This document shows, piece after piece, positions 286 through 6,462 of a stretch of 6,462 bases of DNA; within the stretch, counting starts at the first letter, position 1, and every line of letters starts with the position of its first letter. The position numbers were made by a program, and so were the translations under genes. This DNA is from Candidatus Latescibacterota bacterium. Lineage in GTDB: Bacteria; JAAXHH01; JACQVL01. The stretch is from assembly GCA_016209865.1 (NCBI GenBank), contig JACQVL010000165.1:1-6462 (forward strand), in the 5' to 3' direction. Under the pieces are notes generated by a model that did no database searches, was not told where the DNA came from, and was given only the letters and a program-made list of their open reading frames with translations.

Positions 286-313
286 CCGACCACTGACCAC
301 CGACCACCGATCA
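286..313. repeat. Heptamer tandem array 1 (4 units, consensus CCGACCA)
   Basis: Four 7-nt units in a row read CCGACCA, CTGACCA, CCGACCA and CCGATCA. The array sits between the two divergent promoters, ending 3 nt before the plus-strand -35 box at 317. Units share the pattern NNGAC[CG]A with arrays 2 and 3 in the same orientation. Confidence 0.8.
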
Positions 314-316
314 GTA

Positions 317-345
317 TTGACAGCTTGGATGACGGCGATTACACT
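317..345 (+). promoter_or_regulatory. Sigma70-type promoter of the hypothetical gene at 412
   Basis: A perfect TTGACA -35 box (317-322) is followed by a 17-nt spacer and TACACT (340-345, 4/6 to TATAAT). The predicted transcription start is near 352, about 60 nt before the GTG at 412. An in-frame TAA at 361-363 lies downstream of that point, so the reading frame cannot begin earlier. This is the best promoter match in the window. Confidence 0.6.
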
Positions 346-411
346 GTAGCTGAACCCAACTAAGCACGCTGGCCACTATCCGTCTACCACTCTTCACTGC
401 TCAACAGCACC

Positions 412-978
412 GTGCCCCCATCCTTGACCGAACGCCTGATGCTCCGAGCCTACGCCTGGTGGCTGCGCCGTCGCCGCCCGTACGTCCTGGATATCACCCA
501 GGCGATCCGCCGGGTTGAACGGCTGCTCGTCTGTCTGCCCCCGGACGTCCCTGAGACTGACGCGGCGCTGGCCGTCGTCCCCCACATCGTCGCGTGCCTG
601 GACGCCAGAGCCACCACGATCATCGCTCGGGAGGAGGCGCAAGCCGCGTGCGAGCAACTCAGCCTGCCCGTCCGCGTGGTCACGCTCCACCCGGAGGATC
701 GCCGGTGGTCCGGCCTGCCCGCGCCGAGACTGGTCGACCGGGTGAAGGCGGATGGGGTCATCGACGCGGCGATCGACCTCACCCCGCGCCTGCACCTCTT
801 GACCGCCGCGCTCTGTGTGCAGACCGGGGCGCTCATGCGGATCGGAGTCCGCGATCACAGGAGCGACGCCTTCTTCAACCTCCAGCTTGCCGTCCCGCCG
901 GACGACCCGGCCAGCCTCACCGACCGACCGTTCTACCCCCGGCTGCTGCGGACGATCCAGGGGTTGGTAGGACGATAG
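412..978 (+). CDS. Hypothetical protein, GT9/heptosyltransferase-like N-terminal half
   Basis: This is a 188-residue protein with no signal peptide or membrane segment. After a basic N-terminus (RLMLRAYAWWLRRRRPYVLD, residues 9-27) it alternates hydrophobic strands with helices: LLVCLPPDV (38-46), a helix through VVPHIVACL (55-63), ATTIIA (67-72), VRVVTLHPED (87-96), then GVIDAAIDLTP (115-125), a Leu/Ala helix, and TGALMRIGVRDHR (138-150). The order resembles the N-terminal Rossmann half of glycosyltransferase family 9 proteins or the short DUF6913-like proteins, where a D-L-x-P strand is followed by a helix and an R-I-G-x-R turn. The C-terminal nucleotide-sugar-binding half is absent, so activity as a transferase is doubtful. 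GTG 412 is used as the start; ATG 439 (residue 10) is equally possible, since neither has a clear Shine-Dalgarno sequence. The gene stands alone behind its own promoter. The function is not known; the fold link is my inference. Confidence 0.7.
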   Translation: MPPSLTERLMLRAYAWWLRRRRPYVLDITQAIRRVERLLVCLPPDVPETDAALAVVPHIVACLDARATTIIAREEAQAACEQLSLPVRVVTLHPEDRRWSGLPAPRLVDRVKADGVIDAAIDLTPRLHLLTAALCVQTGALMRIGVRDHRSDAFFNLQLAVPPDDPASLTDRPFYPRLLRTIQGLVGR

Positions 979-999
979 CCCCCTTACTATCCCCCAGGC

Positions 1000-1031
1000 C
1001 CCTTTCTCTCCCACGTTGGGGAGAGAAAGGG
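1000..1031. terminator. Perfect 13-bp hairpin downstream of the hypothetical gene
   Basis: CCCTTTCTCTCCC (1000-1012) pairs perfectly with GGGAGAGAAAGGG (1019-1031) around the 6-nt loop ACGTTG. It begins 21 nt after the stop codon at 978, where it could end or protect the upstream transcript. No T tract follows (AGGGTCAAAT), so it is not a canonical intrinsic terminator. It is also the left unit of the composite repeat. Confidence 0.4.
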
Positions 1032-1067
1032 AGGGTCAAATGGTCTGAAGTCTGATGAAGCCTGTCT

Positions 1068-1093
1068 CCCCTCTCCCCGCTGTGGGAGAGGGG
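1068..1093. repeat. Second hairpin, 10-bp perfect stem
   Basis: CCCCTCTCCC (1068-1077) pairs with GGGAGAGGGG (1084-1093) around CGCTGT. It is the right unit of the composite repeat, in inverted orientation relative to the hairpin at 1000-1031. It lies 30 nt before the TTGACA box at 1123. Confidence 0.6.
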
Positions 1094-1122
1094 CCGGAGG
1101 CGAGGGGGATACAAAAATCCGC

Positions 1123-1151
1123 TTGACAGTCGCGCAAGACCGGCCCATCTT
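1123..1151 (+). promoter_or_regulatory. Weak putative promoter of the GWxTD gene
   Basis: A perfect TTGACA (1123-1128) is followed after 17 nt by CATCTT (1146-1151), which matches TATAAT at only three positions. If used, transcription would begin near 1158 and the leader would be about 50 nt. The perfect -35 box and position make it plausible; the poor -10 box keeps it uncertain. Confidence 0.35.
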
Positions 1152-1197
1152 ACGGTGAGTTCACCTCATCGTTTCCGAATCCATCCTCTCCTTCTCC

Positions 1198-1204
1198 AGG
1201 AGGT
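1198..1204 (+). promoter_or_regulatory. Strong Shine-Dalgarno site of the GWxTD gene
   Basis: AGGAGGT is complementary to the 16S anti-SD sequence and lies 6 nt before ATG 1211, which fixes that start. It can fold back on the pyrimidine run CCTCTCCT at 1185-1192 (see findings). Confidence 0.85.
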
Positions 1205-1210
1205 AGAGGG

Positions 1211-3637
1211 ATGCGACCTCGATCCGCTCTCCTCGGTTGGGCTGTCGCGCTCTTCTTGCTAAGCGTCATCAGCCTTGCTGGCGCGGCGCAAGCCGCCTCA
1301 CCGTCGACAGACCCCCAGGCCGCCCTCGATGCTGGTCAGGCCTTGTACACACAGGGCCGCTTCGCGGAAGCCGAAGCCGAGTTCCAGCGCGCCGTCCAGC
1401 TCCAGCCGAAATCCGCGTCCGCCCGGTACTGGCTGGGCATGACCTATTACGCGCAGAACCAGGATAAACAGGCCCTGGAGCAGTTCCAGCGGGCGATCCA
1501 GTACGACCGGAAGGACCCTAACGGCCATGTCGGGCTGGGACTGGTCTACATGCGGACGAAGAACCGGATGATGGATGCACGGGAAGAACTCAAAGAGGCC
1601 GCCCGGCTCGACCCGAAAAACGGACAGATCCAGTATTATATCGGCCTCTCCCAGGTCGAGCAGAGCAAGCGCGACCCGGCCGCGCCGATGTACATCGCCA
1701 TGAGCCGGCAATCGTTCGAGAAGACGATCAACCTCGACCCCAACCACCCGGATGCCTACTATCAACTGGCGCTGACGTACGAATACCCCTCGCGGGATTA
1801 TAACAAAGCCATCCCGTTTTATTTCAAACAGTTATCCGTGACCCCCGGGCATCGGGACGCGCTCGCCCATTTCGGGAAATGCGTGTTCCAGACGGGGCGA
1901 TACCAGGAAGGAGTCGCGCTGCTCAAACAGCTCATGGACGCGCAGGGGAACCACCCCAACCCGATGATGCGGACGGTCATGGCACAGCTCAACGCGTCGT
2001 ATTTTCAGGCGCAGAAGCAGTACGATCGGGCGCTGGATGTGTATGACCAGTACCTGTCGGCCCTCAACCCCAAAGAGCGGGGGCTGTACACCGACCTCGC
2101 GTATGTCGCTTCTGAGGATGAGACGGAGCGGTATGCGCGGGCATCCGAAGCAGAGCGGGCCGAGGTCTGGCGCAAATTCTGGGCCAGCCGCGACCCCGAC
2201 CCGGCGACGGTCGTCAACGAACGCTTAGTCGAGCACTACCGGCGGGTGATGTACGCGCGCGAGAATTTCTCACGCGGCAAGTACCCGTGGGATCGCCGGG
2301 GCGACATCTACATCCGGTACGGCGAGCCGGACGACCGCCAGCACTTCCTCGCCCGGTCGGATGAGGAAGCGGAGTCGAACTACCGGCCGACCGGCAACGC
2401 GAAGGTGGACGCTATCCGGGAGATGAACCGCCGCTTCCGGTATCGGCTGAAGGTGGATAACGTCGGCGTGCCGTGGGTCTTGGGCGAGGAGCCCGAGCAG
2501 CAGCCAGATGAAGATAACTGGCGTCCAGGTGGGCGCGGGTCGTTTATGCTCAGGGCGGGCCGGGAGACTCAAGGGCTGGTCTATATCTCCGAAAGCTGGG
2601 TGTACGTCCCGTATAACATGGAGCTCTTCTTCGTCGATCAACTGGGGCTCGGCTCGTTCGACTACCCGCTCCCCACGCACGACACTAACGTGGCCGTCGC
2701 CGGCCGGCAGGCCACGTACCATCCGCAGAAAATCGCCGAAACGCTGATCGCCAAGACCCCCGAGGGGTATCAACACGACTACGGCGGGCTCCCGCTCGAT
2801 TTCATGTTCGATGCGGTGACGTACAAGGGGCAGAACGGCCAGACGCTCGTCGAGGTCGCCTACAGCGTCCCGGCCCGCCAGTTGGGGGATGTCGGGGACG
2901 GTCAGGGGCTGAACACGTGGTTCGACAGCCATGTCGTGTTGCGGGATGATGAACTCCGCCGGGTCGCAGCCGCAGAGGAGAAGATCGGCCCGATCGAGCG
3001 TCCGCTCAGTAAGCTGCCGAAGAAGAAATTTGGGGTGGACGTGCGGACCGCCGCCCTGTCGTTTTTGGCTCCGGCGGGCAGCTACCGCTCCGCCGTCGAG
3101 GTGCGGGACGAAGCCTCCCGCCGGATCGGCATCTTCGAAGCCTCGTTGACGGTTGACGACTACAGCGGGAACAGGCTCAACGCGAGTGACATCAAACTGG
3201 CCACTTCTGTCAAACCGCAATCCGCACCAGGCCGGTTCGTCCGGCACGGTCTGGAAATCCTGCCCAACCCGTCACGCCTGTACCACCGGTCCCAGCCGGT
3301 CTACGTGTACTATGAGGTGTACAACCTGAGCACGGACGCCTCCGGCCGCACCACCTACCGCACCGCCTTGAACATCACGGCGAAAGACAAGTCGATGAAC
3401 CTCGTCTGGAAGATTCTGTCGGGGTTCGGCAAGCTCGTCAACCAGTCGAGCACCGGAAAGTCAGTGCTGCTCACGTTCGAGGACGCGGGCACGGCAATGG
3501 ACGAGCGGAAGTACACCGCCATCGACACCGGCGACTCACCCGCCGGGGCGTACACCCTGACGCTGACGGTGACCGACCTGCACACCGGGCAGACGATCTC
3601 CAAAACGACCGAATTCACCGTCGCAGAAGAGCAGTGA
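1211..3637 (+). CDS. Exported TPR protein with GWxTD-type domain
   Basis: This is an 808-residue protein with a clear Sec signal peptide: basic start MRPR, hydrophobic core 6-24, and a likely signal peptidase I site after AQA at 26-28. There is no lipobox cysteine. Residues 35-137 hold three regular TPRs (for example AGQALYTQGRFAEAEAEFQR and ARYWLGMTYYAQNQDKQALE). Further, looser repeats run to about 290, including one with an insertion near 150-165. Residues 323-380 carry the GWxTD-family signature: FWASRDPDP (323-331), NERLVEHYRRVMYAR, then KYPWDRRGDIYIRYGEPDD (357-375). Here the usual G-W-x-T-D is degenerate (YPWDRRG), but the R-G-x-I-Y-I-x-[YF]-G-x-P-D part is intact. The C-terminal third is beta-rich, with YVYYEVYNL near 700 and a last GAYTLTLTVTDLHTG strand pair. 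GWxTD proteins are of unknown function; here a periplasmic scaffold or binding role is inferred. The ATG is fixed by AGGAGGT 6 nt upstream. The TGA stop lies inside heptamer array 2. Confidence 0.9.
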   Translation: MRPRSALLGWAVALFLLSVISLAGAAQAASPSTDPQAALDAGQALYTQGRFAEAEAEFQRAVQLQPKSASARYWLGMTYYAQNQDKQALEQFQRAIQYDRKDPNGHVGLGLVYMRTKNRMMDAREELKEAARLDPKNGQIQYYIGLSQVEQSKRDPAAPMYIAMSRQSFEKTINLDPNHPDAYYQLALTYEYPSRDYNKAIPFYFKQLSVTPGHRDALAHFGKCVFQTGRYQEGVALLKQLMDAQGNHPNPMMRTVMAQLNASYFQAQKQYDRALDVYDQYLSALNPKERGLYTDLAYVASEDETERYARASEAERAEVWRKFWASRDPDPATVVNERLVEHYRRVMYARENFSRGKYPWDRRGDIYIRYGEPDDRQHFLARSDEEAESNYRPTGNAKVDAIREMNRRFRYRLKVDNVGVPWVLGEEPEQQPDEDNWRPGGRGSFMLRAGRETQGLVYISESWVYVPYNMELFFVDQLGLGSFDYPLPTHDTNVAVAGRQATYHPQKIAETLIAKTPEGYQHDYGGLPLDFMFDAVTYKGQNGQTLVEVAYSVPARQLGDVGDGQGLNTWFDSHVVLRDDELRRVAAAEEKIGPIERPLSKLPKKKFGVDVRTAALSFLAPAGSYRSAVEVRDEASRRIGIFEASLTVDDYSGNRLNASDIKLATSVKPQSAPGRFVRHGLEILPNPSRLYHRSQPVYVYYEVYNLSTDASGRTTYRTALNITAKDKSMNLVWKILSGFGKLVNQSSTGKSVLLTFEDAGTAMDERKYTAIDTGDSPAGAYTLTLTVTDLHTGQTISKTTEFTVAEEQ

Positions 3638-3661
3638 CGAGTGACAAGTGACGAGTGACGA
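3634..3661. repeat. Heptamer tandem array 2 (4 units, GTGACGA)
   Basis: Units read GTGACGA, GTGACAA, GTGACGA and GTGACGA. The first unit contains the TGA stop codon (3635-3637) of the GWxTD gene. With its flanks (3632-3662) it matches 5349-5379 at 30 of 31 positions in direct orientation. The rest of the convergent spacer, about 3664-3723, is a pyrimidine-rich stretch with loose CCTCTGC/CCCTGCT-like motifs and no convincing terminator. Confidence 0.85.
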
Positions 3662-3723
3662 GTAAAACAGCAACAGAAGCTCTTTCTCCTCTGCCCCCTT
3701 GTCCCTCTGCTCCCCTGCTGTCT

Positions 3724-5256
3724 TTACCCTTCCTCCATCACCTCGACAATCTCATGATCCAGGCCGGAGAACTGCGCCAGCCAGGCCTGCCGCTCCGACC
3801 GGAGCTTCTGGCTCATCGCGTGGTAGTCCGCGTCGGGATAGTAGCGGGACGGGGTATACCGCTCCAGGTCCACCCCCTCGATCTGTCGAGGCAGCCAGTA
3901 CCCCCACTCCGGGTCCTGCGTCCAGGTGATCGTCCCGCGGGCGATCTCTTTCATGATCGTCGTCGAGACCTCGATCGTGATCTTCTCTCCCGGAAACCCC
4001 TGTTTCGCCCCGACACTGCCCGTATTCAGCAGATAACACTCGATATCCGGGTTCTCGTGCAGAATCTCCAAGAAGCGGTTTCCTTCCTCGAACTCCGGCC
4101 CGATGACGAACGGGTTCGTCCCGACTTCCCGCTTGGCCTGGCCCGCCCGCGTCGGGTCCCCAGCCGATGTCTCGATCGACTCCCCTAACATGAAGAAAGC
4201 CGACGCCTGCTCCGGGGTGAGCTTGACGACCGGCGGGACGATATCCTGCCGGCGAGTAATGAAAATAACCTTATGGGCTTTCTCCAGGTCGATCGACTCG
4301 TCCGTCCCGGCCACCTCCGGCCTGAGGATGATGCCGCGGCCGTTCGTCGTCAGCTCGGTGTTCAGGAAATCCACCCGGCCGTCCTCGTCGACCTTGACGT
4401 TCTCGAAGATCGCACTCTGCCTGGTGGCCGCGTCGTACAGCACTTTCTGCTTCGGCGTCAGCCCCTCGGTCTTGATGTAGAACCCCTGTTCCGTGCCGTA
4501 ACAGATGCCGTGTTCGTCCATCGACACGACGTCATCCTGGCGGATGATCACCCGTTCTGGCGCGACCAGGCCGTGGTCGTGGACGGTCAGCGTCGTCTTC
4601 CCGGTGCCGCTCAGGCCGAACAGGATGAACCCGACATCCTGAAGACTCCCGCTCCGGTCCCGCACCCGGAGCACCTTGCTCCCCGCATGCAGCCCGATCC
4701 CTCCCTGCTGTTTGGCCGCGTACATCGTCATCCGGAGGAACGATTTTTTCGATTCCCCGAAATAATCCGTGCCCAGAATGCAGGTCAGCCGGTGCTTCGG
4801 ATGGACGAAGATAATCCGTTCCGGCCACTCTGGGACGAAGATCGACATCAGGTCGGGGGTGCCCGTTCCGTCGTGCGGAAACAGCGTCTGATGCCACATG
4901 TGCGCAATCCGGGCGTACTCGGCGGTGATGTACAGCCGGCCGTGGAGACGATGGCCGGGCGTCAGTCCGATCCACCGGTCGATCTGGATCACCTCCCGGC
5001 CCTTCAGGTACTCACGCACCTGCGCCAGCAATTCCATCGCACGATCCAGGGGGATCCCCTGTTGCTGAACCCCGACCGTCACCCCGTCCTCGACGATATA
5101 CGTCTTCTTCGCGCTGCGATTCCGGACCTTCGACGTGTAGCTCGCGCTTCCGTACTCTGTTGTGCGTTCATCATGCTGAGCGAATTGCCGCAGACCTTCG
5201 GTCGAGGGGTTGTCGATGATCCGTTTCGCCTCGACGGTGCGCTGAAACACATTCAT
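3724..5256 (-). CDS. pckA: Phosphoenolpyruvate carboxykinase (ATP) family, divergent member
   Basis: This cytoplasmic enzyme family converts oxaloacetate plus ATP to PEP, CO2 and ADP, the entry step of gluconeogenesis. The 510 residues (from ATG 5256) contain the family's landmarks in order: RNRSAKKTYIV (45-55, substrate Arg region; E. coli GRSPKDKYIV), YFGESKKS (165-172, metal-binding Lys), GLHAGS (188-193, metal-binding His), P-loop GLSGTGKTT (214-222), RQDD (239-242, kinase-2 Asp pair), TTNGRGII (303-310, the ENTR-type Arg) and LLNTGSVG (409-416). The usual GDDEHGW block is replaced by RQDDVVSMDEHG, so this is a distant subfamily and its nucleotide or substrate preference is unproven. Start choice: GGGGAGG lies 10 nt upstream of ATG 5256. 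Earlier in-frame ATGs at 5304 and 5346 (540 residues) lack a good ribosome site, and the extra 30 codons have lower GC at third positions. The gene is convergent with the GWxTD gene, and nearly identical heptamer arrays lie on both sides. TAA stop. Confidence 0.87.
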   Translation of the reverse strand: MNVFQRTVEAKRIIDNPSTEGLRQFAQHDERTTEYGSASYTSKVRNRSAKKTYIVEDGVTVGVQQQGIPLDRAMELLAQVREYLKGREVIQIDRWIGLTPGHRLHGRLYITAEYARIAHMWHQTLFPHDGTGTPDLMSIFVPEWPERIIFVHPKHRLTCILGTDYFGESKKSFLRMTMYAAKQQGGIGLHAGSKVLRVRDRSGSLQDVGFILFGLSGTGKTTLTVHDHGLVAPERVIIRQDDVVSMDEHGICYGTEQGFYIKTEGLTPKQKVLYDAATRQSAIFENVKVDEDGRVDFLNTELTTNGRGIILRPEVAGTDESIDLEKAHKVIFITRRQDIVPPVVKLTPEQASAFFMLGESIETSAGDPTRAGQAKREVGTNPFVIGPEFEEGNRFLEILHENPDIECYLLNTGSVGAKQGFPGEKITIEVSTTIMKEIARGTITWTQDPEWGYWLPRQIEGVDLERYTPSRYYPDADYHAMSQKLRSERQAWLAQFSGLDHEIVEVMEEG

Positions 5257-5262
5257 ACGTTC

Positions 5263-5278
5263 GACGCCTCCCCGCGTC
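5263..5278 (-). promoter_or_regulatory. Hairpin presenting the PEP carboxykinase Shine-Dalgarno in its loop
   Basis: On the minus strand GACGC and GCGTC form a 5-bp stem around the hexaloop GGGGAG. The SD sequence GGGGAGG (5273 to 5267) occupies the loop and the first base of the 3' stem arm. It ends 10 nt before ATG 5256. The SD supports this start; the hairpin may be chance in a GC-rich leader. Confidence 0.4.
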
Positions 5279-5350
5279 TCTTCCCGAACGTTTTCGCTTG
5301 ACATATTCCGGGGGACAGGCCAAGTTGTCGTACCCGTCCCGTTCATTTCA

Positions 5351-5378
5351 GTGACGAGTGACCAGTGACGAGTGACGA
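5351..5378. repeat. Heptamer tandem array 3 (4 units, GTGACGA)
   Basis: Units read GTGACGA, GTGACCA, GTGACGA and GTGACGA, followed by a degenerate GCGATCC. It has the same architecture as array 2, with the odd unit also in second place, and the same orientation. It lies in the divergent spacer between the PEP carboxykinase and DUF3187-like genes. I found no convincing promoter for either gene in 5257-5419. TATTAA at 5411-5416 is AT-rich enough to be a -10 box but has no good partner. Confidence 0.85.
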
Positions 5379-5419
5379 GCGATCCTATCCTTTCACCCGT
5401 GAACGTCTCCTATTAAATT

Positions 5420-6462
5420 ATGCCTAAATTCATGAATCCGCAATCCACAATCCACAATCCACAATCCGTATTTGTTCCCTTGATCCTCTGCTTCCTGCTC
5501 TTACATCCTCTCCCCGCAGTTGCCCAGCGCGTCCCGTTCGGTCCGTTCGAGACGCGGGACGAGTTTCCTGTCAAACTCCTGTTCCTCAGCCTGCGGCCGG
5601 ACAGGGCCGGCCTCCGTCCGCCGGGCACGCTCCGGCTGGCCGGACGGTTCGCGTACGCCAACACGTACGCGGTCACCCGCCCGGTCGGGAACCCGACAGT
5701 GCCGCTCGACTACTACCAGGCCGCCCCGTTGAGTGAATACCGGCTGTTCGTCGACGCCGAAGTCCTGCGTGCGTCGTTCGACATCGACTGGAGCCCATCA
5801 GCCCGTTGGCAACTCGGCGCGGAAGTCCCGTTCCTCATCCAGGGCGGCGGCTACCTGGATCGCACCGTCGAGGGATTCCACCACCTCTTCCGGCTGTCGA
5901 ACGGAGGCCGGGAACAGACACCCCGGAACGCCTATGGTGTCTTCGTCGTCCGGTCGGGCCGTTTCTGGATCGCTCACGACCAGCCGCCGGCCGCCGGCCT
6001 GGGGGATGTCGTCCTACGAGTCAAGACGGCGGTCATCACTCCTCACGGCCGCCGGCCCGCCCTCTCGTGGCTTGGGGCGCTGAAACTGCCGACCGGCCAG
6101 TTCGACCGGCTGACCGGGAGCGGCGGAACCGATGCCCAGGTTGCGCTCCTCCTGACTCAGCCCATCGGCGCGTCGTTCATACTCCACTACAACGTCGGCT
6201 ACACCCACATCGGCCGTCCCGCCCGCAGTGCCGGGTTCCCGGTCCGCTCGATCACCTCCCACTTGCTGGCGGCTGAATACCTGGCCACCCGTCGTCTATC
6301 CGTCATCCTCCAGGCCCTGGCCAATACCAGCCTTTTCCCCGCAGGGCGGCTCGGCCCGCTCGACCGGACCGCCTACGAACTCCACGCCGGCGTCAAGTAC
6401 GCCCTCACGCCCTCCATTCTGCTCGACATCGGGCTGATGGAGAACCTGAGCCAGTACCAGAA
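5420..6462 (+). CDS. DUF3187-like exported protein, 5' part (runs off the right edge)
   Basis: There are 347 codons and no stop before the window ends. A hydrophobic core VFVPLILCFLLL (17-28) and AVA before Gln36 give a plausible Sec signal peptide cleaved after residue 35. The mature start RVPFGPFETRDEFPVKLLFL (37-56) fits the G-P-[FL]-x-x-R-[ND]-x-F-P-x-x-L-x-F-L signature I associate with DUF3187. Later parts also fit: FDIDW and WQLGAEVPFLIQGGGYLD (130-147), EGFHHLFRLSNGGREQTPRN (151-170), LGDVVLRVK (194-202) and ALKLPTG (220-226). Alternating strands such as ASFILHYNVGYTHIG (251-265) suggest an outer-membrane beta-barrel; function is unknown. Start is uncertain: ATG 5420 and in-frame ATG 5432 both lack a Shine-Dalgarno sequence, and codons 5-17 are made of heptamer array 4. 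Family call likely; location inferred. Confidence 0.8.
   Translation, partial: MPKFMNPQSTIHNPQSVFVPLILCFLLLHPLPAVAQRVPFGPFETRDEFPVKLLFLSLRPDRAGLRPPGTLRLAGRFAYANTYAVTRPVGNPTVPLDYYQAAPLSEYRLFVDAEVLRASFDIDWSPSARWQLGAEVPFLIQGGGYLDRTVEGFHHLFRLSNGGREQTPRNAYGVFVVRSGRFWIAHDQPPAAGLGDVVLRVKTAVITPHGRRPALSWLGALKLPTGQFDRLTGSGGTDAQVALLLTQPIGASFILHYNVGYTHIGRPARSAGFPVRSITSHLLAAEYLATRRLSVILQALANTSLFPAGRLGPLDRTAYELHAGVKYALTPSILLDIGLMENLSQYQ
5434..5468. repeat. Heptamer tandem array 4 (5 units, CAATCCA) inside a coding start
   Basis: Units read GAATCCG, CAATCCA, CAATCCA, CAATCCA and CAATCCG. The array encodes part of residues 5-17 of the DUF3187-like protein, seen as NPQSTIHNPQS, just before the hydrophobic signal core. 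Seven is not a multiple of three, so adding or losing one unit would shift the frame. Confidence 0.85.

Follow-up and report, generated by a model that had tools for sequence, protein, structure and literature searches.

The window, i.e., the whole stretch of 6,462 nucleotides that was analysed, is contig C110 of a 3.75-Mb genome assembly (83% complete). It carries an unknown ORF and genes for a TPR/GWxTD protein, ATP-dependent PEPCK and a DUF3187 protein, with short tandem arrays standing as arms at spacer edges (Table 1). Tandem Repeats Finder located four arrays of period 7, at 285-310, 3633-3663, 5350-5379 and 5435-5467, in agreement within a few bases with the four listed in the first-pass annotation. 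That annotation had described the first three as kin in one orientation, with NNGAC[CG]A in common and the second unit deviating in each. The letter pattern is literally correct, but the kinship is wrong: as array 286..313 belongs to the TCGGTGG family on the other strand, it is no sister of arrays 3633..3663 and 5350..5379, and among the window arrays only the latter two form one family, AGTGACN.

Table 1. Genes, arrays and spacer of the window
Feature	Coordinates	Strand	Remarks
Unknown ORF	412-978
TPR/GWxTD protein gene	1211-3637
ATP-dependent PEPCK gene	3724-5346	minus
DUF3187 protein gene	start near 5420
TCGGTGG-family heptamer array (top strand ACCGACC, C-rich), right-edge arm	286..313	-	family by comparison with the genome sample
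(AGTGACN)4AGT array, left-edge arm	3633..3663	+	variant pattern G-A-G-G
Degenerate C-rich octamer run, CTCTGCCC CCTTGTCC CTCTGCTC CCCTGCTG	3689..3720	-	read by eye; unscored by repeat finders
Intergenic spacer, TPR/GWxTD gene to PEPCK	3638..3723	.	G-rich left arm and C-rich right arm of different families
(AGTGACN)4AG array, left-edge arm	5350..5379	+	variant pattern G-C-G-G; adjoins 5′ end of the PEPCK gene
AATCCRC x4.7 array (GGATTNN family), right-edge arm	5435..5467	-

Array 286..313 lies in the spacer left of ORF 412-978, where no left partner was seen, and the octamer run faces array 3633..3663 across their common spacer. There is no matched pair among the window's own spacers. The two that were folded gave z values of -0.35 (spacer 3638..3723) and 0.88 against shuffles, and thus fold no better than shuffled sequence because their arms mismatch.

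The first AGTGA of array 3633..3663 (3633-3637) supplies the TGA stop of the TPR/GWxTD gene, and array 5435..5467 covers part of the region where the signal peptide of the DUF3187 protein begins (window 5420-5500). The TAG stop of moaD is likewise supplied by an array (L118 12909-12939). Successive heptamers shift the reading frame, 7 not being divisible by 3, and tandem units with a stop codon in them therefore block all frames. Two strong inverted repeats, ccctttctctccc..ggggagagaaaggg and cctctcccc..gtgggagagggg, lie 3′ of ORF 412-978 (window 999-1034 and 1065-1110) and resemble a terminator plus a REP-like palindrome.

Abundance, build and placement in the genome

Period-7 arrays were counted in an unselected sample of 60 contigs of the same genome (641 kb), of which 58 are readable (~636 kb) and 2 are N-masked, with a score threshold of at least 12 and Markov-3 sequence as the control. 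The arrays are real, and their abundance is far beyond chance: the sample holds 135 against 3 in the control, or ~133 against ~1 in ~636 kb after removal of the N-only contigs, which account for 2 of each. Period 8 gave 12 arrays in the 641-kb sample at this score, and periods 5, 6 and 9-11 were at background level; the control yielded 2-3 arrays at every period, two of them being N-only contigs. The density of about one period-7 array per 4.8 kb extrapolates to roughly 780-800 per genome. Across the 3.75 Mb, the AGTGACN pattern matched 187 times forward and 181 times in reverse, with 0 matches to a reversed control pattern, and AATCCRM triplets matched 21 and 18 times on the two strands. The period-7 excess over the Markov control, together with the 0 reversed-pattern matches, rules out a chance origin, and contaminant contigs are ruled out as the source because 46 of the 58 readable contigs carry arrays and have ordinary, similar GC. 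The genome-wide scan that the first-pass annotation had named as able to refute it thus returned both a large excess and consistent unit families.

Ten unit families, AGTGACN, TCGGTGG, GGATTNN, AAGGACG, CGGGGTT, CAGGGGT, GGGCAGT, AGTGAAG, ATGGGAA and AACCTGG, cover nearly all arrays. One build, with ~4.4 units and a modal length of 30-31 nt, is common to at least ten families; the number of units ranges from 3 to 5. In the AGTGACN family, 36 arrays have four units of which a single one deviates; the deviating unit is the second in 25 arrays, the third in 8, the first in 3 and the fourth in none (χ2 41.6, p 5e-9). Copies of this family are preceded by TAAAA[GT]C and followed by AAAA, and no homology extends further than ~8 nt from the array. 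The favoured variant position, the fixed length and the conserved A-rich flanks of ~8 nt therefore indicate that whole arrays were copied, in line with the earlier suggestion of array copying instead of independent slippage. Families are not regionally clustered (28 same-family neighbours versus 27.9 expected). At loci L057, L061, L104, L110, L114 and L117, a TCGGTGG array lies outside and an AGTGACN array inside the same spacer, in a nested order with an AAAATC-like linker of nearly fixed length, and the centre of some of these spacers holds a GGATTCCCGC palindrome. Separate palindromes, TGTCATTCCCGCGAAAGCGGGAATCCA with ~20 copies and GGGGCGATCCTTGTGATCGCCC with ~14, are dispersed in a larger sample of this genome (0.87 Mb, L051-L130).

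Placement was scored on genes predicted with a home-made hexamer gene caller, by which 141 of 191 arrays lie in spacers and the remainder mostly at gene-call edges. In the main families, the median distance from the array to the nearer gene edge is ~3-30 bp. The G-rich strand points away from the adjoining gene in 110 of 126 cases, independently of the gene strand. This polarity is alike at 5′ and 3′ gene ends, which are used nearly equally (~47 of 110 edge-placed arrays are beside a 5′ end, and slightly more are at 3′ ends). By gene orientation, 107 arrays are in tandem, 16 in convergent and 13 in divergent spacers, compared with 255, 40 and 54 of all spacers.

An architecture absent from the first-pass annotation emerges from these counts, namely inward-facing pairs at both spacer edges with the G-rich strand outward. 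Of 58 cases of neighbouring arrays, defined as those at most 230 bp apart, 48 are convergent; the two belong to the same family in 41 of these 48, against an expectation of 10.3 and a highest value of 20 over 10,000 permutations. All 38 same-family inverted pairs of this genome are G-outward. Convergent same-family neighbours make long hairpins, and six paired spacers folded with z values of -6 to -9 against shuffles. A-tracts accompany the AGTGAC arms on the outside in 27 of 75 and on the inside in 40 of 75 cases, versus 7% of random intergenic 10-mers. Loops within one family are mostly non-homologous, with small palindromes such as GTCATTCCCGCGAAAGCGGGAATCCA in about a third of them. Many arms stand alone or have a partner from a different family. 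Templating of one arm on the other was unsupported, same-spacer arms being no more alike than different-spacer arms (p 0.83-0.96).

Orthologous junctions and wider occurrence

The AGTGACN pattern is absent from 15 other genomes of the order, across which the gene orders tilS-hpt and moaD-thrB are kept. The tilS-hpt spacer, 143 bp long here with an AGTGAAG pair, measures -4 to 7 bp in seven relatives, and the moaD-thrB spacer, 109 bp long here with a GGATTNN pair that includes the array supplying the moaD stop, measures 3, 6 and 14 bp in G001, G011 and G013. The clean empty sites that the first-pass annotation had proposed to look for in orthologous spacers are thus present. In a partly hand-picked set, with spacer ends extrapolated from protein alignments, 12 array spacers with conserved neighbours had a median length of 135.5 bp here versus 30.5 bp in relatives, and 16 array-free spacers showed a median difference of 0.5 bp. 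The pdxJ neighbours were left out of this comparison, their relatives being only 28-38% identical.

Some relatives carry arrays of their own. In place of the AATCCAC array of the window, the DUF3187 start of G011 bears (TTCCTAC)4, a heptamer array of unrelated sequence that encodes part of the signal peptide of the G011 orthologue. Arrays of 7- and 8-nt units are abundant in G013; its tilS-hpt junction holds an octamer pair with the same polarity as here, and further junctions in G013 hold that genome's own units. At the 3′ end of moaD in one genus of the same order (L388-L398), in-frame G-rich arrays of period 9 and varying length extend MoaD and stand where the genome of the window has its heptamer array. 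Samples of one genus of the order contained no arrays. The different units in relatives and the genus without arrays imply that the phenomenon is patchy, with a lineage-specific unit sequence and a general geometry.

Beyond the order, the AGTGACN pattern was found in at least 108 stretches from many phyla, which shows breadth and not frequency, and in 102 stretches of a viral collection. The G-rich strand points outward in 25 of 31 same-family inverted pairs among the many-phyla matches listed and in 22 of 22 at the viral-collection loci; both sets are biased, as the loci were chosen by one pattern, and several pairs nevertheless consist of other units. Another genus of the order obeys the same structural rule (arrays at spacer edges, facing inward, G-rich strand outward), as do most of the sampled array pairs of other phyla.

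Origin of the arrays

The best explanation, to which about even confidence is given, is that each array forms one arm of a small inverted-repeat (palindromic) insertion, and that such insertions are kept at gene junctions genome-wide. Each insertion would consist of a G-rich heptamer array, a loop of 20-160 nt and the complementary C-rich array, ~90-190 bp in total. A trans-acting activity may move or copy such hairpins, and selection would remove those that land inside genes, leaving survivors that lie close to gene edges and take up the spacer. An arm could subsequently be lost or replaced, which would yield lone arms or mixed pairs like those of the window. Insertion is supported by the orthologous junctions, which are often empty in relatives. 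The period-7 excess, the modal length, the polarity set by spacer edge, the convergent same-family pairing, the favoured variant position with short A-rich flanks and the folding of paired spacers also speak for this reading. Its main weakness is the unrelated loops: those of one family are mostly non-homologous, unlike the interior of ordinary MITE copies. Same-spacer arms being no more alike than others, and the window having no matched pair, likewise count against it. A RAYT/IS200 mobiliser was rejected, as a Y1/REP-type transposase gene (PF01797) was not found in the 83%-complete genome in a search that detected its positive controls. The 0.87-Mb sample contained no multi-copy IS with arrays at its ends, and no target duplication was identified, there being no close strain from which to read one.

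Hairpin function is the main rival to the insertion reading. Selected RNA or DNA hairpins at gene ends could serve as bidirectional terminators or as elements of mRNA processing or stability, and the folding of matched pairs well beyond shuffles, the A-tract enrichment beside AGTGAC arms and the closeness to gene edges all point in this direction. We nevertheless consider it doubtful, since the arrays show no gene-orientation preference, which weakens terminator and translation roles alike, the arrays favour neither 3′ nor 5′ gene edges to any marked degree, same-spacer arms are not co-adapted, many arms (the window included) are unpaired, and relatives manage without arrays at identical operon junctions. 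Translational control by regulators bound beside start codons, as proposed for the Beggiatoaceae TAACTGA repeats (PMC4679880), is very improbable. The sizeable share of edge-placed arrays beside 5′ gene ends would suit such a role, but the slight majority at 3′ ends, a polarity independent of gene strand and the ten different unit families argue against it.

Other explanations dispense with the paired insertion. Single elements of ~42 bp (an A-rich flank, four heptamers, an A-rich flank) might move singly, so that pairs represent two insertions. Very small dispersed repeats, to which such elements can be likened, occur in cyanobacteria; moreover, conservation does not reach further than ~8 nt from the array, and many arms have either no partner or one of a different family. 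This origin is unlikely, because same-family pairing far beyond chance and strict convergence are unexpected from independent insertions. Ordinary slippage, in which every array expanded in situ out of a short seed and the heptamer is favoured by polymerase geometry, is consistent with the variation from 3 to 5 units and with the different-unit array at the equivalent DUF3187 site of G011; according to work cited within the Xanthomonas report (PMC4692102), many bacteria have an excess of heptamer SSRs, and slippage of the polymerase has been proposed. It too is improbable, as the favoured variant position, the common flanks and the few families for nearly all arrays require copying, and one seed cannot yield ~100 bp of inserted DNA that includes a second arm. 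A small probability is also assigned to a unit-independent process that makes ~4 units of whatever heptamer, with the G-rich strand outward from gene edges. Such a process would account for unrelated units at one orthologous junction, as seen at DUF3187 (here versus G011) and tilS-hpt (heptamer here versus the G013 octamer pair), and, if true, would represent an undescribed DNA synthesis or insertion activity common to many phyla.

Comparison with known repeats

Heptamer arrays have been reported since the work on cyanobacteria as an unexplained decoration of genomes. As noticed at first, the arrays do resemble heptamer repeats known from other lineages, but the closest match is the GGGAATC repeat of Xanthomonas, ahead of the cyanobacterial STRR that had been named. 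The genomes of X. campestris and X. axonopodis pv. citri contain 186 and 183 GGGAATC arrays, with 70 and 75 convergent inverted pairs, respectively; the repeats lie 28 nt from the 5′-side ORF versus 160 nt from the next, show no strand preference and are generally untied to insertion sequences (Rehm 2015, PMC4692102). Both systems have ~4 heptamers per array, mostly intergenic positions, convergent pairs whose G-rich strand points away from the near gene, and proximity to a gene edge. In contrast to the single unit family there, at least ten occur here, none being GGGAATC; the units here are mostly not G-quadruplex sequences, about 800 arrays are estimated, and orthologous empty junctions are shown.

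STRR and the Nostoc GGGGA(C/T)T repeat are likewise intergenic heptamers in many copies, but they probably differ in unit sequence and come from another phylum, the host here belonging to a small phylum-level group, and only a few inverted pairs are reported for the Nostoc repeat. The Beggiatoaceae TAACTGA repeats share period 7, 2-6 units, positions beside start codons and a patchy occurrence across phyla, whereas they have a single unit, one indirect repeat only and a one-sided placement upstream of starts (PMC4679880). REP/BIME/REPIN sequences with RAYT are comparable in being short, intergenic and arranged as inverted pairs around a variable linker, but single arms here are non-palindromic and the search of the 83%-complete genome yielded no Y1_Tnp gene. 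The same-family inverted arms at spacer edges correspond to the terminal inverted repeats of a MITE; in contrast to MITE copies, which share internal sequence, one-family loops here are mostly unrelated. The 0.87-Mb sample yielded no parent transposon.

In Geobacter metallireducens, the accessible text of a 2009 report (PMC2700814) describes tandem 7- and 8-nt units paired on opposite strands at variable spacing, with several unit classes in one genome. Those sites, with tens of copies per class, were interpreted there as binding sites of global regulators, and the same text reports no edge rule. Relative to the Xanthomonas and Geobacter cases, the larger number of unit families, the higher density and the orthologous empty junctions are new, and the genome offers a testable structural rule of edge-placed, inward-facing arrays with the G-rich strand outward. 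High density, many families, this rule and the empty junctions together make the question of origin tractable, and it may be approached by seeking a gene common to the genomes that follow the rule.
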